DNA of 64,000 nucleotides from Desulfoferula mesophila (lineage in GTDB: Bacteria; Desulfobacterota; Desulfarculia; Desulfarculales; Desulfarculaceae), in NCBI RefSeq assembly GCF_037076455.1, contig NZ_AP028679.1, positions 3,115,501-3,179,500 of the forward strand. The letters run 5' to 3'. Shown in pieces: positions 10,704 through 39,606 of this stretch (within the stretch, counting starts at the first letter, position 1; every line of letters begins with the position of its first letter). The notes below the pieces were generated by a model. That model was not told the origin of the DNA and ran no database searches. It worked only from the letters and a program-made list of their open reading frames with translations. Made by a program: the position numbers and the translations under genes.

Positions 10704-12026
10704 CTATTCGGGGGGAGCCCAGTCGTCTTCGTCTTCCAACTCGACGCCCAACGCCTCCCACTGCGCCTCCGCCTCGGCGTGGGCCTTCTCCACCTCTTCC
10801 TCGCTCCAGGGCTCGACGATGATGGATTCGGCCAACAGTTCCCAGAGGTAGAAGGTCTCTATCTCCAGGTCGTATTCCTTGGTCAGGGCTTTCATTATCT
10901 GATCGCGGCAGTTATGGCAAGGGGCCACCACGATTTCCGCGCCGGTTTCCTGGATCTGCTGGGCCTTTTTGCGGCCGTAGTAAAGCCGCTCGTTGGTGTA
11001 GGGCATGGCCCAGGCGCCGCCGCCGGCGCCGCAGCAGTAGTTGTTTTCCCGGGTGGGATAGGTGTCCACCCAGGTGTCGCAGATCTGATCGGTGATCCAG
11101 CGGATCTCGTCGTAGTAGGCCTTGCCGAAGGTCTTTTCGCTCTTGCGGCCGTAGTTGCAGGGATCGTGCACCGTGGCCAGCTTGCCCGCGAACTTCTCGC
11201 GGTCGATCTTTAACCGGCCCTCCTTGATGTATTCCATCATCAACTCAAAGACGTTCATGACCTTGAACTCTTCGAATGCCTCGGGGAACCACTTCTTGAA
11301 ACTAAGCCTAGTTCCAAAATATGCGTGGCCTCACTCGGGTAAGAGAAGGACCTCGGCCTTCACGTTGCGGGCGTTTTCCAGCACCCGCCGGGCCTGTTCC
11401 TTCATGGACTCGTCGTCCCCGCCGAACAGGCCCCAGGTCACGCCTTCCCAGTTCTCGCTGGATACGGTCCAGCTTTCATGGGCGGCGTAGTATATCTTCC
11501 ACCAGAACTTCATGTCGTCCGGCTCGCCGAAGGGCTCCTTGGAGTTGACCGTGGAGATCACCCGGGCCCCCACCTTGTCCACGGGAACGTAGAAGCCGGG
11601 GAATCCCTCGTCTTCCATTTCCTTGGACATGTCGGCCAAGAGGAACAGCCAGTCGTCATGCGGAATACCCAGGTTGTTGCCCCGCTCCATGGACATCATG
11701 GTGCCCTTGTGGATGGGGCCCGGCACCTTGTCCCGCTCGCGCAGGCCGCGGGCGGTGCGCATCATGGCCAGGATCTCCACTCCCATGGGGCAGGCGCGCT
11801 CGCAGCGGCCGCAAAGGGTGCACACCCAGGGGAAGCGGGAGTTGATCAGTTCCTCGTCCAGCCCCAAGGCGGCCATGCGCACCGCCTTGCGGGGGTCCAT
11901 GCCGTCCACGCCGGTGACTGGGCAGCCTCCGGCGCAGGTGCCGCAAGTGAGGCACACATCGGCCCATTTGGGGTCCACGCGAAGTTTCGATTCGCGCTTA
12001 CCCAGCTTGATCGGCTCTTGGCTCAT
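10704..12026 (-). CDS. HdrD-like (HdrC-HdrB fusion) Fe-S oxidoreductase, selenoprotein with UGA at codon 232
   Basis: A 440-residue protein if UGA (11331-11333) is read as Sec232. The N-terminal third has two [4Fe-4S] motifs (CLTCGTCAGGCP and CTLCGRCERACP), as in HdrC. The rest is HdrB-like with CCG features (VHDPCNYGR, YCCGAGGGAW, APCHNC). The frame runs unbroken through the UGA: ...EVLLLPE-U-GHAYFGTRLSF... Family members have Cys here, and Fe-S oxidoreductases of this type (GlpC/HdrD group) are known bacterial selenoproteins. A SECIS-like hairpin follows directly. The role is probably to reduce a thiol/disulfide partner such as DsrC, in complex with HdrA and Flox. A standard gene caller would split it into 231-aa and 184-aa pieces. 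Confidence 0.88.
11294..11333 (-). promoter_or_regulatory. Bacterial SECIS element for UGA232 of the HdrD-like gene
   Basis: After the UGA and 11 nt, the mRNA folds into an 11-bp stem, UUUUGGAACUA with UAGUUUCAAGA. All positions pair, two of them G-U. The 4-nt apical loop is GGCU. A loop opening with G or GG about 20 nt past the UGA is the bacterial SECIS pattern recognised by SelB. The stem lies wholly inside the coding region. Confidence 0.82.
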
Positions 12027-12186: not shown

Positions 12187-13026
12187 CTAGTATTCTTTCG
12201 GCAGCTTATCCAGCTGAGCCTTGGTGAACACCGGGCCGTCCTTGCAGACGTATTCCGGGCCCACGTTGCAACGACCGCAGATGCCGATGCCGCACTTCAT
12301 GCGGTTCTCCAGGCTCATGACGATCTGCTCGGGCTGCCAGCCCAGTTTGTCGAACACCGGCTGGGTGAAGCGGATCATCACCGGCGGTCCGCAGATCAGG
12401 GCCACCGCGTTGTCGGGCTTGGGGGCCACCTGCTCGGTAACCGTGGGCACGAAGCCCACCAGGCCGTCCCAACCCTCGGCCTCGCGGTCGATGGTGATGT
12501 TCACGTTGGCCTGGCCGCTGTCGCGCCAGCTGCGCCACTCGTCTTCGTAGAGCAGCAGGCCGGGGGTGCGCGCGCCGTAGATGAAGGTGATGTCGCCGTA
12601 CTTGGAGCGGTGGTCCGGGTGCAACAGCCAGTTCATGGTGGAGCGCAGGGTGGTCACCGCGAAGCCGCCGGCCACGATGACCACGTTCTTGCCCTCCATG
12701 TCCTTGAGGGGATAGCTGTTGCCCAGGGGGCCCCTGACCCCCATGATATCGCCCTCTTTCATGTTGTGCAGGCGATTGGAAACGTGGCCCACCTTGTTCA
12801 CCGTGAAGAGCAGATCGTTGCCCTCGGTGGGGCTGGAGGCGATGCCGATGGGTATCTCGCCGTAACCCGATACGCTCAGTTCGGCGAACTGGCCGGGCAT
12901 GTAGTCAAAGGCCTCTGCATCCGCCTCGTTTAGAAACTCAAGCCAGAAGGACTTGAGCATCTTGTCCTCGGTGGCCACCTCGGCCTTTTTGATGCGCACC
13001 GGATAGGGTACGTAGGTATTTCGCAT
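12187..13026 (-). CDS. floxA: FloxA-type FAD/NAD(P)H oxidoreductase subunit
   Basis: A 279-aa ferredoxin-reductase-like flavoprotein. It has an FAD-binding barrel (YMPGQFAELSV, then IPIGIASSP), an NAD(P)-binding domain (VVIVAGGFAVTTLRS, ALICGPPVMI) and a C-terminal [2Fe-2S]-type Cys cluster (MKCGIGICGRCNVG...VCKDG). In Flox-Hdr complexes this subunit oxidises NAD(P)H and passes electrons to the Fe-S subunits. I chose ATG 13026 over an upstream in-frame start because the conserved fold begins here and the upstream codons look spurious. It follows the dicluster gene by 17 nt; a 160-nt gap separates it from the HdrD-like gene. Confidence 0.88.
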   Translation of the reverse strand: MRNTYVPYPVRIKKAEVATEDKMLKSFWLEFLNEADAEAFDYMPGQFAELSVSGYGEIPIGIASSPTEGNDLLFTVNKVGHVSNRLHNMKEGDIMGVRGPLGNSYPLKDMEGKNVVIVAGGFAVTTLRSTMNWLLHPDHRSKYGDITFIYGARTPGLLLYEDEWRSWRDSGQANVNITIDREAEGWDGLVGFVPTVTEQVAPKPDNAVALICGPPVMIRFTQPVFDKLGWQPEQIVMSLENRMKCGIGICGRCNVGPEYVCKDGPVFTKAQLDKLPKEY

Positions 13027-13043
13027 AGCTATTGGACCTTGCC

Positions 13044-14072
13044 TTAAGCGTTCATGTCGTTGACCACGCGGCGCACATCGATGTTCACCGGACAAAGCTG
13101 CACGCAACGCCCGCAGCCCACGCAGCCGACCTCACCACCCCGCTTGGCGGGGATGTATTTGAACTTGTGCATGAAGCGCTGCCGCACCCGGTCCAGCTTG
13201 GTCCCGCGGGGGTTGTGGCCGGTGCCGTGCATGGTGAACAGCCAGCTCATGCAGGAGTCCCAGTTGCGCACCCGGCGGCCGGTCTCGCCGCTGGTTTCGT
13301 CCTGGATGTCGAAGCAGTGGCAGGTGGGGCAGCAGTAGGTGCAGGTGCCGCAGTTCAGGCAGCTTTCCTGCACCCGCGACCAATGGCCCGCTTCGTAGAG
13401 CTCCATCACCTCGCGCGAGAGCACCTGGTCCATGCCCACCTGGGACTCAATCTGCTCCTCGGAGGCCTTTTGCTGGGCCTCGGCCGCGGCGATTTCCTCG
13501 GCCGACGCGTCGGCCAGGCCCTCGGCCAGGGCCTCGCCTTTTTCGGTGAGCGTCTTGACCAAAAGCTTGTCGCCCAAATCCACCAGCAAGGCGTCCAGAC
13601 CGGTGGTGGAGTGGGGGCCGCAGTTCATGGAGGTGCAAAAACAGGTGGGGCAGGGATCGGAGCAACCCAGACCCACCAGGGTGGTGTTCTCCCGCTTGTC
13701 CCGCCAGTAGAAGTCGTTGGTCATCTCGTCCTGCACGAAGATCAGATCCAAGACCTGGAAGGCCTTGGCGTCGCAGGGGCGGATGTTGAGCAGCAGGCGC
13801 TTGTCACCCAGGCCGGGCTCGGAGTGCATCACCATGCCCTCTTCGCCGTCCTGCACGTTTTTAAAGCGCATCATGGTTTCGCTTTGGGGGAAGAAAAACT
13901 CCTTGGGGCTCATGTGGGTGTTGCTGAACTCCCACAAAGCCTTGTCGGTATCTTCCAGCCGGGCCCATTGGGCCTTTCCCTCGGACTCCTGCGGGGCGTA
14001 CACCTCGTATTTGGAGGTCAGCCCTTCCAGGAACCCGCCCAGCTTGTCTTTGGCCAGTATCTTCTCAGCCAT
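13044..14072 (-). CDS. Flox Fe-S subunit, 4Fe-4S dicluster (AsrA/FloxB type)
   Basis: A 342-aa cytoplasmic iron-sulfur protein. The N-terminal two-thirds resembles anaerobic sulfite reductase A/hydrogenase beta-type proteins (LLNIRPCDAKAFQVLD, CSDPCPTCFC). The C-terminus has two [4Fe-4S] motifs, CLNCGTCTYCCPTCHC and CVGCGRCVQLCP. It is expected to relay electrons from the FAD subunit to HdrA. It lies 12 nt after the previous gene. Which of the FloxB and FloxC names applies is uncertain. Confidence 0.85.
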   Translation of the reverse strand: MAEKILAKDKLGGFLEGLTSKYEVYAPQESEGKAQWARLEDTDKALWEFSNTHMSPKEFFFPQSETMMRFKNVQDGEEGMVMHSEPGLGDKRLLLNIRPCDAKAFQVLDLIFVQDEMTNDFYWRDKRENTTLVGLGCSDPCPTCFCTSMNCGPHSTTGLDALLVDLGDKLLVKTLTEKGEALAEGLADASAEEIAAAEAQQKASEEQIESQVGMDQVLSREVMELYEAGHWSRVQESCLNCGTCTYCCPTCHCFDIQDETSGETGRRVRNWDSCMSWLFTMHGTGHNPRGTKLDRVRQRFMHKFKYIPAKRGGEVGCVGCGRCVQLCPVNIDVRRVVNDMNA

Positions 14073-14084
14073 TGCCTAGCCTTC

Positions 14085-15047
14085 CTACTTGATGAATTCC
14101 TGGGGGTCGTTGGGTCGGTACACGCTCAGGGGCGGGGTGGATTCCAAGTCCAGGCCCGGGGTGTAACCGTACAACTCGCGCACGTCCTTCTCGATCTTGC
14201 TGGTGAAGCGGCGCACCTTGATGCCCATGGGGCAGGCGCTCTCGCAGGCCCCGCAGTCGGTGCAGCGCCCCGCGCAGTGGAAGGCGCGCAGCAGATGGAA
14301 GGTGGCCACGTCCGCCTCGTCCTGGCCCTTGCCGCACCATTGGGGCTGGCTCTCGTCCACGAAACACACGTGGCAGTAGCACAGGGGGCAGGCGTCGCGG
14401 CAGGCATAGCAACGGATGCAGTCCTTGATGGTGTCCTCAAAGGCCGCCCAGCGCTCCAGGGGCTCCAGCTTTTCCCAGGGCGCGGCCACCGCGTCGATGT
14501 TGCCGCCCCAGTCGGAGGGGCCTTCCTCGCCCATCAACTCGTCCACGATCACCGGGTTGCGCTGCACGCAGGTGTAGCAGTTGTCGCGGCGAACCTTTTT
14601 CTGGTCCACCCGCTCCTCGAAACCCTTGCCCTTGACGATTAGGTCTTCCCCGTCCACCGTCACCTCGGTGATGGTCTTCATGGGGAACAGGGCCTCCACC
14701 TTGCGCCGGTCCACCATGCCCGGGCTGGGCACTCCCAGGATGTAAACCTGATCGCGGGCGATCTGGTTCTCCTTGATGAGCCCCACGATGCTGCGGCTTA
14801 CGCAGCCCTGGGCCACGATGGCCACCTTGCCCTTTTCGCCCGCGGGACGGCGGATCAAAAAGTTGGCCAGGTTGTTGGTGCAAAAGGGCGACCAGGTGAG
14901 GTTGTCCGCCTCCTCGGGGGTGTAGGCGAAGTAGGGATAGTCGCGCATGGGCACGGTGCCCTGCGCGTAGCCGATCACGCAATCGACCGTGCCGTCGCTC
15001 AAAAGCTTTTTGGCCGCCTCGCGGATCTTGGTGACTAGGGCTTCCAT
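14085..15047 (-). CDS. Flox Fe-S subunit, F420-hydrogenase beta-like/4Fe-4S protein (FloxC type)
   Basis: A 320-aa protein. The N-terminal part (VIGYAQGT, IVAQGCVSRSIVGLI, DNCYTCVQRNP) resembles the FrhB/coenzyme F420 hydrogenase beta family. The C-terminal half carries CIRCYACRDACPLCYCHVC and CTDCGACESACPMG, two ferredoxin-like clusters. It overlaps floxD by one base. It is probably an electron-transfer subunit of the Flox module; F420 use is not implied in bacteria of this type. Confidence 0.85.
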   Translation of the reverse strand: MEALVTKIREAAKKLLSDGTVDCVIGYAQGTVPMRDYPYFAYTPEEADNLTWSPFCTNNLANFLIRRPAGEKGKVAIVAQGCVSRSIVGLIKENQIARDQVYILGVPSPGMVDRRKVEALFPMKTITEVTVDGEDLIVKGKGFEERVDQKKVRRDNCYTCVQRNPVIVDELMGEEGPSDWGGNIDAVAAPWEKLEPLERWAAFEDTIKDCIRCYACRDACPLCYCHVCFVDESQPQWCGKGQDEADVATFHLLRAFHCAGRCTDCGACESACPMGIKVRRFTSKIEKDVRELYGYTPGLDLESTPPLSVYRPNDPQEFIK

Positions 15048-15487
15048 CAGGCCACCTTCCGGATGTCTTTGACCATGCGCGTGGCCGGGCCGAGCTCCTT
15101 AACCGCTTCGGTTACCTTGATGACCGTATCCTGGAACTTGGTGGCCTCGGCCGAGGATATCCAACTGAAGTGCAACCGGCCGGATTCGATGCCTACGTAC
15201 TCCAGGAGGTTTTTTAGTACGGCGAACCGCCGTCGGGCGAACATGTTGCCAGCTATATAGTGGCAGTCGCCCGGGTGTCAGCCGGAGACCCAGACCCCGT
15301 CCACTCCCTGCCTGAAAGCCTGCAGGATGAACTTGGGGCTCATCCGGCCGGTGCAGGGAATGCGGATCACATGGATGTTGGGGGGATACTGCAACCGGCT
15401 GACGCCCGCCAAATCGGCCGCGCCATACGAGCACCAGTTGCACAGAAACGCCGCTATGCGCGGTTGGAACTGTTCGTTATCACTCAT
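15047..15487 (-). CDS. floxD: MvhD/FloxD electron-transfer subunit, selenoprotein with UGA at codon 70
   Basis: A 146-residue protein when UGA (15278-15280) is read as Sec70. The frame is ...[21 protein letters not shown]..., and the MvhD family signature has Cys at this position. Other family landmarks are [24 protein letters not shown] and [14 protein letters not shown]. MvhD-type proteins link a hydrogenase or Flox module to HdrA through a [2Fe-2S] cluster. The methanogen homologue VhuD is a known selenoprotein at this kind of site. It starts 21 nt after the hdrA stop and overlaps the next gene by one base. Without recoding it splits into 69-aa and 65-aa pieces. Confidence 0.87.
15235..15280 (-). 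promoter_or_regulatory. Possible SECIS hairpin for UGA70 of floxD
   Basis: Downstream of the UGA the mRNA can pair GGGCGA with UCGCCC (lower stem) and UGCCA with UGGCA (upper stem), around a 9-nt loop CUAUAUAGC. Position and size suit a bacterial SECIS. The loop does not open with G, so it is weaker than the other two in this operon. Confidence 0.45.
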
Positions 15488-15508
15488 GGGACCGTACCGT
15501 CCTATTTC

Positions 15509-18500
15509 CTACAGAGCCATGATCTGGGCCATGACGCCCTGGTTGGTGAAGCCTCTCAAGTTCGGCGCGCCGGAGCGGCAGGAGGCCACGCAGGTGCCGC
15601 AGCCCTTGCACAGGGCCTCGTTCACCACGGCCAGGCCGTTCTCGTCCTGGGTGATGGCCTGGTAGGGGCAAACCGTCCAGCAAACCCCGCAGCCCACGCA
15701 CTTGCGCTGGTCGATGATGGCCACGGTGCCCGGCAGCATCATCTCCTTGGAGCTGAGCACCGTCACCGCCCGGGCCACCGCCGCCTGGGCCTGGGCCACC
15801 GCCTCTTCCAGAGGCTTGGGATAGTGGGCCAGGCCGGCCATGAACACGCCGTCGGTGGCGAAGTCCACGGGGCGCAGTTTTTGGTGGGCCTCCAGGAACC
15901 AGCCGTCCGCGTCCATGGACACCTTGAACATCTGGGCCAGGTCGTTGGCCCGGTTGCTCACGATGGCCGTGGCCAGACCCAGCAGGTCCGCCTCGATGAG
16001 CAGGTCGCGGCCCAGGATGTGGTCGCGCACCTTGACCACCAGGCCACCATCGGTGGCCTGCACCTCGGGCTTGTGGTCCACGTCGTAGCGCACGAACAAC
16101 ACGCCCTTGCTGCGGGCCTCCTTGTACATGAGCTCCCGCTCGCCAAAGGTGCGGACGTCGCGGTAAAGGATTACCACCTGGGACTCGGGGTTGGCCTCCT
16201 TGATGGCCAGGGCGCTCTCCACCGAGTGGGTGCAGCAAACCTTGGAGCAATAGGGACGCTCCGGCTCGCGGCTGCCCACGCACTGGATGAACACCGCCTT
16301 GTTCACTTTGCTCAAATCCAGCTCGCCGCCCAGCACGGCCTGGTCGATCTCCAGGTGGGTCATCACCCGGGGGTCCTGGCCGTAGAGGTATTCGGCGGGC
16401 TTATATTCGCCCGCGCCGGTGCAGATCAGGGCCACTCCGTGCTCCACCACTTCTTCGCCGGCGTCACCGGCCAGGGTGGTCTTGAAGTTGCCCACGAATC
16501 CTTCCACCTCCTTGATGGTGGTGTTCAGATGCACGGTGATCAGGGGCTCGGCCGCGATCTTCTCCCGGAGCTCGTCCAGGTAGGGGGCGATGGGCTGGTT
16601 CTGGTAGGTGACCCTAAGGCTGCGGGCGTTGCCGCCCAGGGCGTTGTCGCGCTCCACCAGGTGGCAGGAGTAACCCTGGGCCGCCAGGTTCAGAGCCGCG
16701 TTCATGCCCGAGACGCCGCCGCCGATAACCATGGCGCCGGGAGTGACCTCGAGCTGCACCTCCTCCAGGGGGCTGAGCAGGGCGGCCTTGGCCACGGCCA
16801 TGCGCACCAAGTCCATGGCCTTTTCCGTGGCCGCGTCCGGGTTGCCGGAATGCACCCAGGAGTCCTGGTTGCGGATGTTGGCCATCTCGAACAGGTACTT
16901 GTTCAGCCCGGCGTTGACCAGGGTCTCCTGGAACAGGGGCTCGTGGGTGCGCGGGGTGCAGGCGGCCACCACCACCCGGTTGAGGCCCTCCTCCGCGATC
17001 ACCTCGGCCATCTTGTCCTGGGTGTCCTGGGAACAGGAGAACAAGTTGTTGCGCACGTAGGTGACGAAAGGCAGGGTCTTGGCGTATTCGGCCACCGCCT
17101 CCACGTCCACCACCCCGGCGATGTTGATGCCGCAGGAGCACACGAACACGCCGATCCTGGGCGAGTCGCCTGCCACGGGCCGCTCTGCCGGGTATTGCTG
17201 CTCCTGGGCCAGGCTGCCCCGGGCGCTGGAGAGCTTGCCCGCCGCGGCGCAGGCGGCGGCCGAGGCTTCCATCACCGACAGGGGGATGTCCTTGGGACCG
17301 GCCAGGGCGCCGCAGACGTACACGCCGGGGCGGCTGGTGGTCACCGGCGCGAAACAGCTGGTGGAGATGAACTTGCCGGGGCTCAGGTCGATGTCCAGGC
17401 GCTGGCAGAGTTCGATGGTCTCGGGCGAGGTCTCCAGGCCCTGGGAGAGCACCACCATGTCAAAGGTCTCGACCTTGGCCTGACCGTCCTCGGTGGCGTA
17501 CTCGATCTGCAGGGAGTGGTCTTCCAACTCGCTGATGGAGTGGATGCGGCTGCGGATGAAGCGCACGCCGTCTTCCTGGGCCCCCTCGTAGTAGCGCTCG
17601 AAGTCCTTGCCGAAGGTACGCATGTCCATGAAGAAGATGGCAGCGTCCAGATCGGTGTGCGAGTGCTCCTTGGCGATCACCGCTTCCTTGATGGCGTACA
17701 TGCAGCACACCGCCGAGCAGTAGGGATGGTCGCAGGTGTTGACCTCGCGGCTGCCCACGCACTGCAGCCAGGCGATCTTCTTGGGCTCGGCCTCGTCGCT
17801 GGGCCGCACCAGGTGGCCCATCCAGGGGCCGGAGGCGGCCAGGACGCGCTCGAACTCCAAGGCGGTCACCACGTTGGGGAAGTTGGCGTAGGAGTATTGC
17901 ACGTAGGGGCTGGGATCAAAGGGCTTGAACCCGGCGCTGATGATCACCGAGCCCACGTTGATCTCGCGAACCTCTTCCTGCTGCTCGTAGTTGATGGCGC
18001 CGGTGGGGCAGAACTTCTGACAAGCCTTGCACTTGCCCTTTTGGAAGTAGATGCAGTTATCGGCGTCGATGCCGTACTTGAGTGGCACGGCCTGGGCGTA
18101 GCGCACGTAGGCGGCCTTACGCTTGTCCAGGCCCTCGTTGTATTCGTTGGGGATGCGCTTGGGACATTTATCAGAGCAAGCACCGCAGGCAATGCACTTG
18201 TCCAGGTCCACATAGCGGGGATGGCTGACGACCTTTACCGAAAAGTCGCCTTCTTCGCCCTCGATATCCTGAACCTCGCTGAGGGTCAGGAGTTCAATAT
18301 TGATATGCCGGCCGACCTCGACCAGTTTGGGCGAGATAATTCACATTGCACAGTCATTGGTGGGAAAGGTCTTGTCCAACTGGGACATGACCCCACCAAT
18401 GGCCGGGCTCTTCTCCACTAAATAGACATAATAGCCGGAGTTGGCCAGGTCGAGAGCGGACTGCATACCTGCAATGCCGCCGCCCACCACCATAACCGCA

Positions 18501-18526
18501 CCGGTGACTTGCTTGGCTTTTGCCAT
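15509..18526 (-). CDS. hdrA: Long HdrA flavoprotein with two FAD modules, selenoprotein with UGA at codon 62
   Basis: A 1005-residue protein when UGA (18341-18343) is read as Sec62: ...[23 protein letters not shown]... HdrA normally has Cys here, and HdrA is a selenoprotein in some methanogens. Module 1 (residues 1-450) has FAD motif [16 protein letters not shown] and clusters [11 protein letters not shown] and CKACQKFC. Module 2 (about 455-1005) starts with [17 protein letters not shown] and has a second FAD motif, [17 protein letters not shown]. It ends with two ferredoxin clusters, [12 protein letters not shown] and [11 protein letters not shown]. HdrA flavins carry out the electron bifurcation. 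It is the first gene of the operon. At roughly 1.5 times usual length it looks like a fusion of two HdrA units. Confidence 0.9.
18308..18343 (-). promoter_or_regulatory. Bacterial SECIS element for UGA62 of hdrA
   Basis: After the UGA and 15 nt, the mRNA forms a 7-bp stem, CUGGUCG with CGGCCGG, including G-U pairs, with a 4-nt loop AGGU. The loop begins 23 nt past the UGA, the same spacing as the HdrD-like SECIS. The GGU loop core resembles known bacterial SECIS loops. Confidence 0.78.
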
Positions 18527-19465: not shown

Positions 19466-19553
19466 GCCGGAGTGGCGGAATTGGTAGACGCAGGGGACTC
19501 AAAATCCCCCGGTCTTTATGGCCTTGCGAGTTCGAGTCTCGCCTCCGGCACCA
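19466..19553 (+). tRNA. tRNA-Leu(CAA)
   Basis: An 88-nt tRNA with encoded CCA. The acceptor arms GCCGGAG and CTCCGGC pair perfectly. The anticodon loop CTCAAAA gives anticodon CAA. A long variable arm (type II tRNA) and TTCGAGTC T-arm are present. The 3' end is followed by a terminator and then the IS-rich accessory island, as expected of a tRNA used as an integration target. Confidence 0.97.

Positions 19554-19686: not shown

Positions 19687-20906
<1,220 letters not shown>

Positions 20907-38386: not shown

Positions 38387-39606
<1,220 letters not shown>

Follow-up and report, generated by a model that had tools for sequence, protein, structure and literature searches.

The window analysed here, a stretch of 64,000 nucleotides of the Desulfoferula mesophila genome, carries on its minus strand an HdrD-like gene (12026..10704) whose reading frame is open but for a TGA at codon 232. 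The hairpin that follows this codon is almost certainly the bacterial SECIS of a selenoprotein gene, as judged from sequence. An earlier note on this DNA had proposed a SECIS after UGA232, and the proposal is borne out in several ways. The hairpin agrees with the published sequence and fold rules, and its presence among homologues is coupled to selenocysteine (Sec) rather than cysteine at the equivalent residue. The genome also encodes tRNA-Sec (71.8 bits, cut-off 47), SelB (393 bits, cut-off 242) and SelA (612 bits). Read through the TGA, the gene would encode an Fe-S oxidoreductase of 440 aa with HdrC and HdrB domains and a Sec232 in the motif PE-U-GHA, where the TGA aligns with the TGC or TGT of Cys homologues.

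All parts of the element lie on the minus strand. The in-frame UGA (11331..11333) is followed by an 11-nt spacer, GGCCACGCAUA (11320..11330), and then by the 5' arm UUUUGGAACUA (11309..11319), the apical loop GGCU (11305..11308), which lies 22 nt past the UGA, and the 3' arm UAGUUUCAAGA (11294..11304). The arms are defined by fold and covariation. All 11 stem pairs form between 11319 and 11294 (9 Watson-Crick and 2 G-U), and RNA folding of the locus gives precisely the 11-pair hairpin with the GGCU loop. The earlier note had placed such a hairpin 11 nt past a UGA in the context LLLPE-U-GHAYFG; it named no strand, but its coordinates are correct, the fold agrees and the UGA is the sole interruption of the frame. 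Its eleven consecutive pairs all form here, but they exceed the core conserved outside the window's genus, which is about 7-8 pairs long and which the lower A/U pairs extend locally.

Bacterial SECIS elements (bSECIS) are described as having a loop of 3-9 nt on an upper stem of 4-16 bp, G at the first two loop positions, a distance of 16-37 nt from the UGA to the apical loop and an MFE of at most -7.5 kcal/mol (PMC13188914). The corresponding values here are a loop of 4 nt, a stem of 11 bp, the loop sequence GGCU, a distance of 22 nt and an MFE of -9.4 kcal/mol for the 30-nt hairpin. A search of Rfam at gathering thresholds matched no family at the hairpin.

Taken by itself, the length of the stem counts for little, because about two dozen other sites on the minus strand of the window have uninterrupted stems of 11 pairs or more. 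With long stems so common in this GC-rich window, the hairpin could be read as an unselected by-product of the conserved AYFGTRLSF residues and codon bias. Tests of stability give this reading some footing: the 50-nt fold is moderately more stable than dinucleotide shuffles (z -2.0; 7 of 200 shuffles equally stable), the 110-nt context around the hairpin is ordinary by the same comparison, and across Sec genes the MFE-only test yields a modest mean z of -1.36. Plain MFE tests are weak to moderate because GC-rich shuffles fold well, so a hairpin-specific score was used instead. Codons were resampled for the same residues and the hairpin was scored by the published SECIS rules. Under this synonymous null an equally good SECIS-shaped hairpin is rare (p about 0.001). 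Moreover, GCA TAT TTT GGA ACT AGG CTT AGT is the most atypical eight-codon run of the operon (rank 1 of 2,359 windows of that size), its synonymous frequencies being 0.009-0.18 against the usage of the five operon genes taken as reference (operon GC3 0.88). Both results back the impression in the earlier note that AU-rich arms within GC-rich coding DNA look selected. The by-product reading also has to contend with coupled codon changes across the stem (ACC/ACT with GGT/AGT, GGG/GGA with ACC/GTC) and with Cys genes that encode a similar protein motif and lack the hairpin, and it is very improbable. A selected SECIS is the preferred reading.

Homologues were sought among 148 relatives and 395 genomes of the phylum, and the matching regions were then fetched. 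The codon equivalent to 232 is TGA in 109 of 168 readable homologues, drawn from three subfamilies, and TGC or TGT in the other 59; the Sec homologues have the motif U-G-H. Hairpin regions were also taken from 77 matches in 80 additional loci, which belong to Desulfarculaceae, Desulfobacteraceae, Desulfobulbaceae, Syntrophobacteraceae and other Deltaproteobacteria. A hairpin was counted as present if it had at least 6 pairs and a loop starting 20-24 nt after the Sec or Cys codon. Among 136 non-redundant proteins it is present in 81 of 84 Sec genes and 5 of 52 Cys genes, which leaves three Sec genes that fail this definition and five Cys genes that pass it. Both the conservation of the stem among Sec orthologues, compensatory changes included, and its loss from Cys orthologues had been put forward in the earlier note as checks on the SECIS, and both speak for it. 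In a tree from which the hairpin columns were excluded, Sec and Cys switch at least 13 times, and about 10 phylogenetically independent contrasts agree with the coupling while 0 oppose it (median p 0.002). The median synonymous-null p is 0.019 in Sec genes versus 0.69 in Cys genes, with p < 0.01 reached individually by only about one third of the Sec sequences.

Some Cys members (L117, L118, L119/L120/L134 and L036/L132/L133) nest within the Sec clade, which suggests reversion from Sec to Cys. All eight genomes in question contain SelB and so had kept the capacity for Sec decoding. A third subfamily is more distant (L087 and L088, about 31% identity, motif TECGHAYR). Alongside Cys members it has Sec members whose hairpin occupies the same position, and in L088 the hairpin has 9 pairs (p 0.005). 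The genome of D. mesophila itself also contains a Cys paralogue that is 49% identical (L051, C1:4184720-4185976, minus strand). There PDCGGGSYGC replaces PEUGHAYFG, and neither the hairpin nor the His at +2 is present; all fetched members with this motif are Cys.

The hairpins of the Sec genes occur in two architectures. Type A, which includes the window, is associated with the Arg codon AGG and has an upper stem of GACC/GGUC, GACU/AGUC or AACU/AGUU with a GGCU-like loop of 4 nt; a U on the 3' side is unpaired in most relatives. Type B is associated with the codons CGG, CAG or CTG and has seven pairs, a loop of five nt and no bulge, its stems being GCAACCC/GGGUUGC, GCGGUCC/GGACUGC, GCAAUCC/GGAUUGC and others. 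G at the first loop positions is kept in the Sec relatives. With the SECIS of E. coli fdhF and the bSECIS consensus the window hairpin shares its place in coding sequence just past the UGA, the 4-nt GG loop, the 22-nt distance, the 11 bp and an MFE below -7.5 kcal/mol. In the fdhF SECIS the upper stem carries a bulged U in its 5' strand. The window stem has no bulge, whereas the unpaired U of its type A relatives lies on the 3' side.

Covariation in the stem of related genomes, another check named in the earlier note, is seen in both types, with more double changes than in any of 500 shuffles. In type A 85.7% of cells are paired and 18 are double-change cells (shuffled mean 7.8); in type B the values are 87.5% and 25 (shuffled mean 7.7). 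Cells are sequences rather than events and the shuffles ignore relatedness, so that counts of changes on the tree serve as a guard. The observed register exceeds all slid registers, which in type B reach at most 42% paired and at most 8 double-change cells. Taken by group, the signal is carried by the AGG type and by the TEC subfamily. For the PEC Sec set without AGG, taken alone, shuffles equalled the observed covariation value. The swap from C-G to U-A at pair 23/30 (0-based from the U of UGA), with at least 4 changes on the tree, couples a synonymous Thr change (ACC/ACT) to a change between Gly and Ser (GGT/AGT). Likewise, the Gly codon GGG/GGA covaries with Thr ACC or Val GTC.

The tree implies at least 8 exchanges between types A and B. 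It is conceivable, though on present evidence somewhat doubtful, that SelB accepts two interchangeable architectures at one position in this gene family, so that loop G residues at a fixed distance, and not the details of the stem, would define the signal, and that the change from Sec to Cys can drop the GG of the loop while the stem still stands. Among the open-access papers searched, none dealt with covariation in the stems of bacterial SECIS elements. Nor were the two architectures or the L118 relic described below found in the literature searched, which mostly excluded subscription papers and hence gives no proof of novelty.

The gene L118 carries TGC and shares 74% identity with the closest Sec relative. 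At the same place it has an 8-pair stem (-14.8 kcal/mol) whose loop, UUCUU, has lost its G residues. Its genome also encodes two Sec paralogues (L150 and L157) and SelB. The stem is likely a fossil SECIS, in which the loop may have lost its G ahead of any loss of the stem. Remnant SECIS structures are known in reverted FdhA and HesB-like genes (PMC1794560). A strong stem retained in a Cys gene could also mean that the hairpin is selected for pausing, mRNA stability or generic readthrough, the UGA being read as Cys or Trp; the binding of SelB to the window hairpin is, after all, a prediction. Yet L118 is without the loop G residues required by the bSECIS model, and hairpin presence follows Sec across independent lineages. 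The genome of the window encodes the tRNA-Sec, SelB and SelA that Sec insertion would use, and the homologous residue is Cys. Selection for another purpose is thus highly unlikely, and a SECIS remains the preferred account of the hairpin. There is next to no chance that the UGA is a true stop or a sequencing error, with two genes or a pseudogene and an incidental hairpin, for although a downstream ATG (11258) could begin an ORF of 184 aa, more than 100 homologues share the TGA at this codon and have an open frame before and after it, homology continues through the TGA, the codon is otherwise Cys and the hairpin covaries.

The HdrD-like protein joins a Fer4_8 domain (HdrC-like 4Fe-4S dicluster) to CCG (HdrB-like) domains by Pfam. 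It belongs to a known type of selenoprotein, Fe-S oxidoreductase-like/GlpC/HdrD, to which the window adds a member. Earlier publications cover the family, the UGH motif, the SECIS rules and the gene clusters with Sec HdrA and Sec FrhD/MvhD. With the GlpC/COG0247 (PTHR43551) selenoprotein it shares UGH, the HdrC and CCG domains, the occurrence in Deltaproteobacteria and the nearby Sec HdrA and Sec FrhD/MvhD. The published glpC operons, however, carry FrhG/FrhA hydrogenase genes, in place of which the window has HydB/HydG-like genes (NAD-linked, Flx-like). By its description, hdrD4 of Desulfobacterium autotrophicum HRM2, a soluble HdrC-HdrB fusion reported to contain selenocysteine, is also alike (PMC2702500). 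HmcF, TmcB and DsrK are related to it at the level of the overall family, with profile scores of 207, 186 and 134 bits. Identity with any of the three was rejected since these scores lie far below the curated NCBIfam cut-offs (750, 735 and 400 bits, respectively).

The predicted structure of the protein has a mean pLDDT of 83.6. The best structural match of the model is the soluble domain of Mycobacterium EtfD (PDB 9ojn; Z 25.5), and HdrB matches with Z of about 19-20. Cys581 of EtfD binds a linear cluster, and the ligand set of the noncubane cluster is completed by His583 (PMC13083937). By spacing and fold of the model, U232-G-H234 would correspond to Cys581-x-His583, and by spacing C290, C331, C332, C370 and C373 would correspond to the five noncubane-cluster cysteines of EtfD. 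EtfD was not among the results when an alignment to it around U232 was sought by sequence, and the residue match at U232 is therefore based on fold, range and motif spacing. U232, H234 and the five cysteines are invariant in the aligned Sec set. Given this invariance and the match in spacing, the probable place of Sec232 is next to a noncubane [4Fe-4S] cluster that has the five cysteines and H234 as ligands. The protein differs from EtfD in that Sec replaces Cys, A235 replaces Cys584 and the other Cys ligands of the first CCG domain are not conserved. Because of the last two differences a linear [3Fe-4S] cluster is unexpected. As a guess, Sec232 may be a selenolate that is cluster-proximal, attacks disulfides or binds metal.

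The hdrD gene stands last in an operon on the minus strand with the order hdrA - mvhD - 4Fe-4S protein - hydB-like - hydG-like - hdrD. The HdrA-like gene (15509..18526; HdrA2 model) has an in-frame UGA at 18343-18341 in the motif CAMU, and the MvhD/FlpD-like gene (15044..15490; PF02662, E 5.9e-53) has one at 15280-15278. They are followed by genes for a 320-aa 4Fe-4S protein (14085..15047; Pfam Fer4), a HydB/AsrA-like Fe-S subunit (13044..14072; NCBIfam) and a HydG/AsrB-like FAD/NAD-binding subunit (12187..13035; NCBIfam). The same gene order is found in four other named loci with sufficient flank. Since HdrA and MvhD have in-frame UGAs of their own, three selenoprotein genes seem to share one operon. 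By analogy with Flx-Hdr complexes, its product is probably an NAD(H)-linked electron-bifurcating complex, a disulfide reductase. In such a complex the Sec232 protein would be the HdrC-HdrB subunit and would act with HdrA, MvhD and the HydB/HydG-like subunits.

The UGA of the HdrA-like gene lies in the context NDCAM-U-IISPK and is followed by a candidate SECIS of 7 pairs with the loop AGGU at 22 nt (synonymous-null p 0.066). Calling of ORFs with the standard code starts this gene downstream, at 18211, and misses the N-terminus. The UGA of the MvhD/FlpD-like gene (context WVSG-U-HPGDCH) has no convincing standard SECIS by score (p 0.30), so its element may be of a non-standard bacterial SECIS class.

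Elsewhere in the window two ALIL pseudoknots (Rfam RF01497, 105.9 bits each) lie about 18.7 kb apart on the plus strand, at 19965-20081 and 38665-38781, near a tRNA-Leu(CAA) at 19466-19553. This pseudoknot is a frameshift element known from IS3-type insertion sequences. The stretch between the two may be a mobile island.

When a ribosome reaches UGA232, SelB carrying Sec-tRNA-Sec would bind the hairpin with the apical GG loop 22 nt further on, so that Sec would be inserted in place of termination. The hairpin would then unfold and be translated as residues 236-245. Standard annotation would cut the HdrD-like gene at this UGA. With at least 13 switches between Sec and Cys, two architectures and a likely fossil, the family makes a good natural data set on the requirements of SelB and on reversion to cysteine. 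The locus and its relatives present a bacterial SECIS that is kept by compensatory evolution within coding DNA and that tracks the Sec/Cys state across lineages.
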